Shown: positions 32,907 to 48,878 of the stretch, piece by piece
How positions within the stretch are numbered: the stretch's first letter is position 1
Layout: each line of letters opens with the position of its first letter
NCBI RefSeq assembly: GCF_000374145.1
Contig: NZ_KB893654.1
Coordinates: 584,995 to 648,994 of the forward strand
Source of the DNA: Neomegalonema perideroedes DSM 15528
GTDB taxonomy: Bacteria > Pseudomonadota > Alphaproteobacteria > Rhodobacterales > Rhodobacteraceae
Reading direction: 5' to 3'
DNA length: 64,000 nt
The notes under the pieces: generated by a model
What the model saw: the letters and a program-made list of their open reading frames with translations, nothing else
Told to the model about the DNA's origin: nothing
Database searches by the model: none
Translations under genes and position numbers: made by a program

Positions 32907-33398
32907 ATGTCCGCGCCCTATGATCCGCAAAAAGCCTTCATGGTCTCTTGGGACCAGATCCACCGCGATTCCCGCGCCTTGTCCTGGCGGCTCGACGGGA
33001 CGGAATGGCGGGCCATCGTGGCCGTGACGCGCGGCGGATTGGTGCCCGCCTGCATCCTGGCGCGCGAGCTGAATCTGCGCGTGGTGGACACCATCGGGCT
33101 GAAGTCCTACAGCGACCAGAGCCAAGGCTCCGAGGTGCGTCTGCTCAAGGCGCCGGACGCCAAGCTCATGGGCGACGGCGAGGGGATCCTGATCGTCGAC
33201 GACCTCGTGGACACCGGCAAGACTCTGGAGGTGGCGCGGCGCATGTATCCCAAGGCGCATTTCGCCACCGTCTACGCCAAGCCCAAGGGCCGCCCCCTCG
33301 TGGACACCTACATCACCGAGGTCAGCCAGGACACCTGGATCTATTTCCCCTGGGACACCGTTCCGCAATACGTCAAGCCGCTGCGCGGGGCCGACTGA
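32907..33398 (+). CDS. gpt: Xanthine-guanine phosphoribosyltransferase
   Basis: A 163-aa purine salvage enzyme converting xanthine and guanine to nucleotides with PRPP. The PRPP-binding motif [13 protein letters not shown] (~95-107), VTRGGLVPA near 48 and the base-recognition WIYFPWD near 145 are as in E. coli Gpt. ATG at 32907 begins [10 protein letters not shown]. Its TGA forms the first bases of the palindromic element at 33396. Confidence 0.95.
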
Positions 33399-33445
33399 GC
33401 GCAATCCGAAAAGTTTGAAAGACTTTTCGGATCAATTGCGCGACC
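33396..33445 (+). repeat. Stop-codon-linked palindromic element, copy 1
   Basis: A 50-bp element that begins with the gpt stop TGA, then GCGCAATCCGAAAAG, a 10-nt loop, TTTTCGGAT and AATTGCGCGACC. The arms form a long stem with a small asymmetry. Copy 2 at 47674-47723 is identical outside the loop except for one base. It probably also works as a terminator for the convergent genes here. Confidence 0.8.
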
Positions 33446-33457
33446 CGATCCGAAATC

Positions 33458-33495
33458 AGAGCCTTTGAAGATCCGTCCGGATCGGAGAAGGCTCT
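33458..33495 (-). terminator. Nested hairpin at the 3' end of the PaaI thioesterase gene
   Basis: AGAGCCTT pairs with AAGGCTCT, enclosing GATCCG-TC-CGGATC. The structure overlaps the thioesterase stop codon (TAG at 33494-33496 on the minus strand) and abuts the palindromic element. Confidence 0.5.
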
Positions 33496-33943
33496 AAACC
33501 CGCCCCTCCACCCGGATGAGCGTCTGCTGGCCTATGGCGACCAACTCCCGGCGCTCCTGCGCATGGGCGAAGACCTCCAGCTGGCAGATGGTGAGGGTCC
33601 GCCCCGCCTTGACCACCCGGCCCACGGCCTCCAGAGATTCGCCATGGGCCGGGTTGATCAGATTGATCTTGAACTCGACCGTCAGCACCGAGGCGTTTTC
33701 CGGGAAGGTGGTGAAGGCGGCGTATCCGCCCGCGCTGTCGGCGACGGCCGAGGTTCCGCCCGCATGGAAATAGCCATGCTGCTGAGTCAGCTCGGGCCGG
33801 AAGGGCAGGGAGATCCGCGCCAGCCCGTAACGCGCCTCGATCAGCTCCGCCCCGAGGTGGCGCATCAGCCCCTGACGCCCGAAGCTGGCTTTGAGGTCGG
33901 CTTCGATCTCGGGCGCGACGGGGTCTCCGATCTGCGGCTTCAT
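33494..33943 (-). CDS. PaaI-family hotdog thioesterase
   Basis: A 149-aa acyl-CoA thioesterase of the PaaI/YbdB group. The active-site region [18 protein letters not shown] (catalytic Asp) and the [13 protein letters not shown] strand are conserved. GGAGCC lies before the ATG. Substrate is unknown; no phenylacetate genes are nearby, so it is likely a general housekeeping thioesterase. Confidence 0.88.
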
Positions 33944-47504: not shown

Positions 47505-47654
47505 TCAGGCGTCGGGAGGCGTTTCAGGGGCCGGAGCCGGAACGGGCGTCAAACGCCCCTCCGCTTCGTCCTCCATCAGCTCGAACCACATGGCGTTGAG
47601 CACCGCGAAGGCCGCCGCCAGAGGAAGGCCGAGCATCCAAGCGAAATACCACAT
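47505..47654 (-). CDS. cydX: Cytochrome bd oxidase small subunit CydX
   Basis: A 49-aa single-pass protein starting MWYFAWMLGLPLAAA, which matches the CydX/YbgT signature (MWYFAWILG). CydX stabilises the CydAB haem site. The membrane helix spans ~3-22; the acidic FELMEDEAEG follows as in the family, then a Pro/Ala-rich tail (TPVPAPAPETPPDA) not usual in short CydX. It starts 67 bp after cydB, across the palindromic element, with AGGAGAACC before the ATG. Confidence 0.9.
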   Translation of the reverse strand: MWYFAWMLGLPLAAAFAVLNAMWFELMEDEAEGRLTPVPAPAPETPPDA

Positions 47655-47673: not shown

Positions 47674-47723
47674 GGTCGCGCAATTCATCCGAAAACCGGT
47701 TCCCGCTTTTCGGATTGCGCTCA
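47674..47723 (-). repeat. Stop-codon-linked palindromic element, copy 2
   Basis: Read on the minus strand it begins with the cydB stop TGA, then GCGCAATCCGAAAAG, a 10-nt loop (CGGGAACCGG), TTTTCGGAT and AATTGCGCGACC. Outside the loop it differs from copy 1 (33396-33445) at one base, and both sit in the same orientation relative to the upstream gene. Here it lies between cydB and cydX, where a hairpin could lower downstream expression. Confidence 0.8.
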
Positions 47724-48878
47724 GTAAGCGTGGGTGTCGCCCTTGGCGATGGCCGCCACGTCCACCTTGCCGCGCAGGATCCGATAGACCCAAGCCGTGT
47801 AGAGCAGGATCAGCGGCATGAAGATCAGCGTCGAGCCCAGCATCACGAAGAGCGTGAAATGGCTGGAGGAGGCGTCCCAGACCGTCAGGCCCGAGCGCGG
47901 ATCCAGCGCCGAGGGCAGCAGGAAGGGGAAGATCGAGACGCCGACCGTCGCGACGATTCCCGTGATCCCGAGTCCGCTGGCCAGCAGCGCCCGACGCGGC
48001 AGATTCCGCCGCAGCGCCCAGGCCGCTCCCAGCATGCCGAGAATCCCGAGGACCGGCGCGAGAATCGCCGGGGGGAAGGCGGCGTAATTGCTCAGCCAGC
48101 CGCCTTGGACCAGCTCGACGCTCTTGCGCAGCGGATTGGAGGCCGCCGCCGGATCGACGACGCTGACGATCTGATGGCCGTTGAGGAAGGCCACCCAGAC
48201 GCCGCCGACCACGAAGAGCGCCGCCGCCGCCAGAGCCGCCTTGGAGCCGATGGAGCGCGCGCGCTCCGCCACGGGGCCCTCGAGCTTGAAGGCCAGCCAG
48301 CCCGCGCCATGGGCCAGCAGCATCGCCAGAGAGACCAGACCGCAAAGCAGTCCGAAAGGATGGAGCAGCCGGAAGAAGCTGGTCCATTTGAAGGTCACGC
48401 CCAGCGAGGCGGGGTCATAGGAGAAAAGCGAGCCCATCAGCGCCGAACTGGTCGCCGCGCCGAAGAGGATCGCCGCCAGACCGCCCGACAGGCAGAGGAC
48501 GACGTCCCAGCGCGCGCGCCATTTCGGCTCCTCGCGCTTGGAGCGGAATTTGAAGGCCACCGGCCGCAGGATGAAGGTCACCAGCAGCAGGAACATCGCC
48601 AGATAAAAGCCCGAGAAGGCGGCGGCGTAGATCAGCGGCCAGGCGGCGAAGATCGCGCCGCCGCCGAGGATCAGCCAGACCTGATTGCCTTCCCAGACCG
48701 GACCGATGGAGTTGATCACCGAACGGCGTTCGAGGTCGGTCTTCGCCACGAAGGGCAAGAGCGCCTGAGCGCCGAGGTCGAAGCCGTCCATCACCGCGAA
48801 GCCGACCAGCAGCACGCCGAGCAGCAGCCACCAGATCACGCGCAGGACGTCGTAGGAGATGAGTTCATGAAGGACCAT
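47721..48878 (-). CDS. cydB: Cytochrome bd ubiquinol oxidase subunit II
   Basis: A 385-aa, eight- to nine-helix membrane subunit of cytochrome bd, the high-affinity quinol oxidase. DGFDLGAQALLPFVAKTDLERR and GPVWEGNQVWLILGGGAIFAAWP are family hallmarks. It starts 6 bp after cydA. The length matches the E. coli subunit (379 aa). Confidence 0.97.
   Translation of the reverse strand: MVLHELISYDVLRVIWWLLLGVLLVGFAVMDGFDLGAQALLPFVAKTDLERRSVINSIGPVWEGNQVWLILGGGAIFAAWPLIYAAAFSGFYLAMFLLLVTFILRPVAFKFRSKREEPKWRARWDVVLCLSGGLAAILFGAATSSALMGSLFSYDPASLGVTFKWTSFFRLLHPFGLLCGLVSLAMLLAHGAGWLAFKLEGPVAERARSIGSKAALAAAALFVVGGVWVAFLNGHQIVSVVDPAAASNPLRKSVELVQGGWLSNYAAFPPAILAPVLGILGMLGAAWALRRNLPRRALLASGLGITGIVATVGVSIFPFLLPSALDPRSGLTVWDASSSHFTLFVMLGSTLIFMPLILLYTAWVYRILRGKVDVAAIAKGDTHAY

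Follow-up and report, generated by a model that had tools for sequence, protein, structure and literature searches.

Two copies of a palindromic element in the window

The window, the whole 64,000 nt stretch of DNA that was analysed, contains two copies of a palindromic element, each starting on the stop codon of a gene. The gene gpt, for a xanthine phosphoribosyltransferase (32907..33398, plus strand; NCBIfam NF006613, 5e-70, and gene call), ends with the TGA at 33396-33398, and this TGA is followed by a hairpin and by GACC to make up 50 bp (33396..33445, plus strand). In the predicted fold, hairpin 1 spans 33399..33441 on the plus strand, pairs GCGCAATCCGAAAAG...CTTTTCGGATCAATTGCGC with a 4 nt bulge on the 3' side, and has a computed energy by itself of -22.7 kcal/mol (z -4.67). 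The 50 bp unit of the preliminary description is a real segment, but it is just the left half of a two-hairpin composite at 33396-33496. An unpaired 16 nt linker (33442..33457, plus strand) is predicted to lead into the second half, hairpin 2 (AGAGCCTTT...AAGGCTCT; 33458..33495, plus strand), and the composite folds computationally into two independent hairpins and the linker at -45 kcal/mol (z -6.1). Out of hairpin 2, on the minus strand, reads TAG|AGCC, in the same register as at the opposite end, and this TAG (33494..33496; ggct[CTA] when read on the plus strand at +96) is the stop codon of a convergent gene for a hotdog-fold thioesterase (33494..33943, minus strand; TIGR00369, 1e-17; PF03061). 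The gap between gpt and the thioesterase gene is thus the element entirely, from stop codon to stop codon.

The second copy (47674..47723, minus strand) consists of the cydB TGA, hairpin 1, and GACC. It lies between cydB, for cytochrome bd subunit II (47721..48878, minus strand; TIGR00203, 4e-111), and cydX, for the cytochrome bd small subunit (47505..47654, minus strand; TIGR02106, 8e-18; PF08173), which is directly 3' of the element and has its ribosome-binding site, AAAGGAG, intact beside it. In gene-to-downstream order the gpt copy reads TGAGCGCAATCCGAAAAG-TTTGAAAGAC-TTTTCGGATCAATTGCGCGACC and the cydB copy TGAGCGCAATCCGAAAAG-CGGGAACCGG-TTTTCGGATGAATTGCGCGACC. As had been described, both are 50 nt long and start with TGA, their arms are the same but for a C or a G at a single position of the 3' bulge, and their 10 nt loops are different. 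At the Rfam gathering score there was no match to an element family in the window or at nine element loci, where tRNAs alone were matched.

A repeat family and its association with stop codons

The resemblance between the two elements is not due to chance, because the exact hairpin-core pattern occurs at 18 places in the genome (3.41 Mb in 17 contigs; genus Neomegalonema), as against none for the reversed control pattern. A covariance model gave 57 matches, which are 52 distinct copies and 5 reverse-strand echoes, and the family size of about 52 used here is that of the model. A genome-wide search for the pattern had been proposed in the preliminary description, and its outcome is neither a set of copies merely scattered without relation to stop codons nor an absence of further copies. 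The family consensus is AGCGC[A/G]ATCCGAAAA-loop-TTTTCGGATNAATYGCGCGACCAnAAAA. Across the 20 copies taken into the alignment the stems are nearly invariant, with compensatory changes, while the loops are variable; the innermost base of the outer stem, A or G, covaries with its partner (11 A-U, 7 G-C, 1 G-U, and 1 unpaired). The earlier suggestion of selection on a structure, made from conserved arms around a free loop, is borne out by these pairing-preserving changes. Between the orthologous copies L018 (C10:124293) and L154 (C33:96636 in the congener described below) both arms have changed together, from CCGAAAAG..TTTTCGG to CCGGAAAG..TTTCCGG, which at the level of the sequence is direct evidence of either a pairing constraint or arm correction.

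Second hairpins similar to that of the gpt copy are found 3' of further copies, mostly diverged ones, and the short copies, the one between cydB and cydX included, have the first arm only. This would suggest an older composite and a recent amplification of hairpin 1 alone. There are 19 copies in the congener and 0–4 in each of 59 other relatives, and no match among 50,697 phage records. Arrays of the element are arranged head-to-tail with a period of 54–61 bp. Two contigs, C2 and C11, both start within a head-to-tail array with a 61 bp unit (C2:14-118, L061; C11:4-120, L053); the array probably broke the assembly at these points, and the two contigs may be neighbours.

The association with stop codons was assessed at 43 loci, after arrays had been collapsed and contig ends dropped. 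Gene ends were taken from a home-made codon-usage ORF caller trained on the window, in which some starts and nested genes are misplaced, and by these calls a co-oriented upstream stop codon is found no more than 1 nt from the AGCGC start at 15 of the 43 loci (12 TGA, 3 TAG), where random gene-sparing insertion in the window would give about 0.8% (binomial 7e-21). The abutting loci are 14 of 27 among well-conserved copies and 1 of 16 among diverged ones. No called stop codon abuts the element at the other 28 loci. The link to stop codons in one orientation was therefore correctly recognized in the preliminary description, and the fusion is common, but it is not fixed, nor is it confined to TGA, as TAG and TAA are also used. 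The gene context of the 43 loci is convergent at 14, co-directional with the element at another 14, opposed at 12, and divergent at 2, with 1 locus cut off. At 7 of the 28 loci without abutment a TAG or TGA is present in register although no gene is called as ending there, so the stop triplet comes with the element end or with its target, rather than with translation, and genes make use of it where they happen to lie there. The 5' junction cannot be placed exactly, since the target T-GA(G) and the element (A)GAGCGC share 2–4 nt. TAG accounts for 3 of the 48 stop codons in the window. The tetranucleotide CTAG is strongly avoided there, with 5 occurrences against about 189 expected from base composition.

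Orthologous sites in a congener and relatives in other alphaproteobacteria

The flanks of the copies were located and aligned in Neomegalonema sp. STC_130, of the congeners searched the closest, which does not have many of the copies and in which nearly all of the upstream proteins end alike. These empty orthologous sites are in agreement with the mobility that had been suggested for the palindrome. Between cydB and cydX the congener site is empty (ACTGAG|AAAGGAG), placing the element between the stop codon and the cydX ribosome-binding site. Judged by spacing, this copy is a gain, since in six outgroups with a cydB 56–60% identical the distance from the cydB stop codon to cydX is 11–30 nt, as against 66 nt here. 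The same two convergent genes that flank the gpt composite overlap by their stop codons in the congener (GATTAAAC). At three loci the stop codon differs: GCC TGA in the congener corresponds to GCC TAG|AGCGC here at 88219, GTC TAA to GTC TAG|AGCGC at 149503, and CCC TGA to CCC TAG|AGCGC at 1279999. The TGA is unchanged at five further loci (359325, 111185, 429336, 1027589, and 831724), while at 1409842 the end of the protein is changed, the congener frame being one codon longer. The copy at C1:1279999-1280055 (congener locus L162) is flanked by the repeat GGCCCTAG, which includes the stop codon; no other flank in the set looks convincingly like a duplication.

At 865325 the congener (L190) retains what appears to be the remnant of a collapsed hairpin (GGAAGCGAAGCGCGCGATCC). 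This suggests that the palindromes can also be lost, through internal deletion, and because such a remnant is kept, some of the other sites that are empty in the congener may be deletions.

The two-hairpin layout with TAG, TAA, or TGA ends is also present in Bradyrhizobium, Mesorhizobium, Rhizobium, Oceanicaulis, and Alkalicaulis, and a Bradyrhizobium composite has a fold identical in layout to that of the gpt composite. Agrobacterium vitis and Allorhizobium share a 27 nt stretch with the element at 100% identity, and an Asticcacaulis match is 88% identical over 98% of the element. An approximate, rhizobial-repeat-like query matched 355 plasmid records, nearly all of them rhizobial. Annotated CDSs end exactly on the first TRR of the element in Mesorhizobium WSM1497 and in two Bradyrhizobium plasmids. 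The rhizobial search gave seven further loci with a CDS end at the left end, one of them a TGA, and seven others without stop abutment at the left end, a frequency that is biased upward, as several of these loci were chosen since a gene was listed under the match. The scan of contigs for the element only is, unlike these gene-picked loci, an unbiased sample, and in it, at 8 of 12 loci outside Neomegalonema, a long open frame has its terminal TAG or TAA at the left end (seven at +0 and one at +1); 8 of 12 is the figure used, with two loci (L178 and L180) ambiguous. Stop codons on the opposite strand at the right end are seen at L167, L170, L181, L196, L197, L199/L201, L205, L209, and L215, of which L170 and L181 are apparently a single orthologous locus. 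The flanks in these other alphaproteobacteria are mostly CTAG, CTAA, or TTAG. A class-wide scan with the inner-hairpin pattern added one further genome only, and the comparison rests on the rhizobial and contig-scan loci. In the Rhizobium sp. N324 plasmid (L214, 372-1132) an annotated IS5-family transposase lies about 70 bp from a copy of the element, which may be a coincidence. The stop register is the same in the rhizobial, Rhodobacteraceae, and Oceanicaulis/Alkalicaulis elements, and the GTAG REPs offer a precedent (PMC3733652), so that the fusion to stop codons is not unusual, as it had at first been called.

Mobility, placement, and known repeats

The element is quite probably a small non-autonomous mobile palindrome of the RIME/CIR type, the ends of which either bear a YTRR stop triplet in fixed register or insert at one. 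It is made up of hairpin 1 and an A-rich linker, to which complete copies add hairpin 2. The register is [C/T]TAG|AGC..., [C/T]TAA|AGC..., or TGA|GC..., pointing outward from the left end and, where the copy is complete, from the right end too. Insertion at the T of a stop codon would leave or rebuild the stop and would not change the protein; with stop triplets at its ends or as its target, the element could enter gene ends and leave the proteins undamaged. The two convergent genes at the gpt copy end on the two termini of the element, and the cydB-cydX copy is one of the hairpin-1-only short forms, which would have been amplified recently in Neomegalonema. The family, its stop register, the empty sites, the unchanged protein ends, and the gain at cydBX are direct observations, from which movement and the cause of placement are inferred. 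Movement would be as DNA, by some enzyme, and no transposase linked to the family was found in a search that covered Y1_Tnp. Placement may be due to target preference together with selection against gene damage and promoter disruption, through which copies would remain at gene ends; as CTAG is almost absent from the window (5 against 189 expected), a CTAG-like target preference would alone steer insertions to gene ends. As a side effect, the stable hairpin touching the stop codon may slow termination or shield the 3' end of the mRNA, and a functional consequence of a hairpin 0–1 nt after the stop is, by analogy with the REPs of E. coli near stop codons, plausible. Against the mobile palindrome can be counted the 28 of 43 loci without abutment, the lack of a general target-site duplication and, in the search for Y1_Tnp, of a linked transposase, the remnant at 865325, and the changed protein end at 1409842.

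If the element were a classical MITE that a DDE transposase cross-mobilises with duplication of the target, stop codons would be hit owing to the rarity of CTAG and TAR anywhere but at gene ends. The IS5-like target rule is YTAR/CTAG, and the CTAG, CTAA, and TTAG flanks in other alphaproteobacteria, the near-inverted ends CTAGAGC/GCTCTAG of complete copies, the 8 bp direct repeat at the 1279999 copy, and the avoidance of CTAG in coding DNA all fit with it. This origin is nevertheless rather unlikely: direct repeats overall do not clearly exceed those of the shuffled control (the longest flank repeat averages 4.58, against 4.31 after shuffling, with 17 of 300 shuffles as high and the excess mainly in tandem copies), the ends behave as inverted rather than direct repeats (at L197, CTAA on the left and TTAG on the right), a right terminal repeat is lacking in the short forms, and CTGA predominates among the target stops of the congener. 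It is still harder to regard the element as an RNA functional in the host, with mobility secondary and the hairpin kept after stop codons to stall terminating ribosomes, block 3'-5' decay, or tune a downstream gene such as cydX. The strong predicted RNA hairpins, the compensatory A-U/G-C changes in the outer stem with the paired A/T to G/C change between the orthologous copies at 124293, the scarcity of divergent contexts (2, to 14 convergent and 26 tandem), and the stalling of ribosomes by E. coli REPs up to 15 nt from a stop codon (cited in PMC12306157) are all as expected of such an RNA. Most of the sites are, however, empty in the congener with the genes otherwise intact, the upstream genes have no obvious common function, TAG or TGA is in register also where no gene ends, and a DNA hairpin needed for mobility would equally give the pairing constraint.

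REPs dependent on a RAYT, of the GTAG or CGTC type, are similar in size, palindromic form, 3' location, tandem clusters, and, for the GTAG REPs, TAG-supplying termini (PMC3733652). It is very improbable that the element is one of these, and the candidate was rejected with both of its defining features absent: Y1_Tnp (PF01797) has no match in this genome or the congener, where five control genomes were positive, and no GTAG or CGTC tag is seen at the hairpin foot in the 20-copy alignment. The relatedness to REPs raised in the preliminary description is not upheld, as neither Neomegalonema genome has a Y1/RAYT transposase. Hairpins after stop codons are common in bacteria, but there is almost nothing to be said for an intrinsic terminator or a chance resemblance of two hairpins. 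Hairpin 1 is not followed by a T-run in either orientation, a separate G+C-rich hairpin comes after several of the copies, and the cydBX copy is inside an operon, while chance is excluded by the approximately 52 genomic copies. The terminator was rejected, the scan for terminators being negative at hairpin 1.

To return to the mobile palindrome of the RIME/CIR type, it is possible, as a more tentative proposal, that a palindrome spread through the alphaproteobacteria has evolved outward stop codons in fixed register at both ends, with which it would insert at stop codons, even at overlapping convergent ones, leaving the proteins unchanged; it would be a non-RAYT, YTRR-reading element, and its hairpin at the stop codon would be a ready-made control point for termination. 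A selfish repeat can in this way be nearly invisible to protein selection, and effects of strong hairpins directly at stop codons on termination and mRNA decay would be measurable there.

The closest known kinds are the rhizobial RIME and the CIR repeats of Caulobacter and Brucella. RIME, the Rhizobium-specific intergenic mosaic elements, were reportedly described by Osteras in 1995, and the likeness to them rests here on rhizobial plasmid repeats rather than on sequences from the RIME paper. These RIME-type repeats (CTAGAGCATGATCC...) have a like layout, of a left hairpin with a 4 nt 3' bulge, a linker, and a right hairpin, and share the inner core and the TAG|AGC stop register, a kinship in sequence as well as in structure. 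They differ in the outer stem, which is GCATGAT in the rhizobial repeats and GCGCAAT/GCGCGAT in Neomegalonema, where most copies, unlike the two-hairpin rhizobial repeats, have hairpin 1 only. The CIR (CerM-associated intergenic repeats, including Bru-RS) are intergenic, of about 110 bp, with two hairpin arms, a linker, and TA at the termini (PMC2229807). The element is alike in its two arms and linker, intergenic location, and TA termini when compared with the description of CIR. CIR are characterised by the GANTC methylation site, which is absent from both window copies; by eye it can be made out in rhizobial copies and in a few further composites. The two long inverted repeats with a linker (about 110 bp) that are typical of RIME and CIR are present in the gpt copy, and the element belongs to this structural class (PMC2573895, PMC2229807).

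Palindrome ends that supply stop codons are already published for the GTAG REPs, small palindromes near the 3' ends of genes, close to both genes when these are convergent, the termini of which often provide the TAG stop to flanking ORFs (PMC3733652). The element shares the 3'-end palindromes and stop-supplying termini but has no GTAG tag and no RAYT gene, forms a two-hairpin composite, and uses TGA and TAA also. The REPs and BIMEs of E. coli likewise have a stable hairpin by the stop codon, with ribosomes stalled when a REP is within 15 nt of it (cited in PMC12306157); the hairpin of the element is 0–1 nt after the stop and the sequences are unrelated. No report of the stop register in this non-REP class, present at both termini of complete copies and accompanied by empty sites, was found in the literature searched. 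For decades RIME and CIR have lacked both a mobility mechanism and a landing rule, and the exact stop register, at both ends in complete copies, together with the clean empty sites seen when the two closely related Neomegalonema genomes are compared, provides a concrete and testable rule of insertion for this class.
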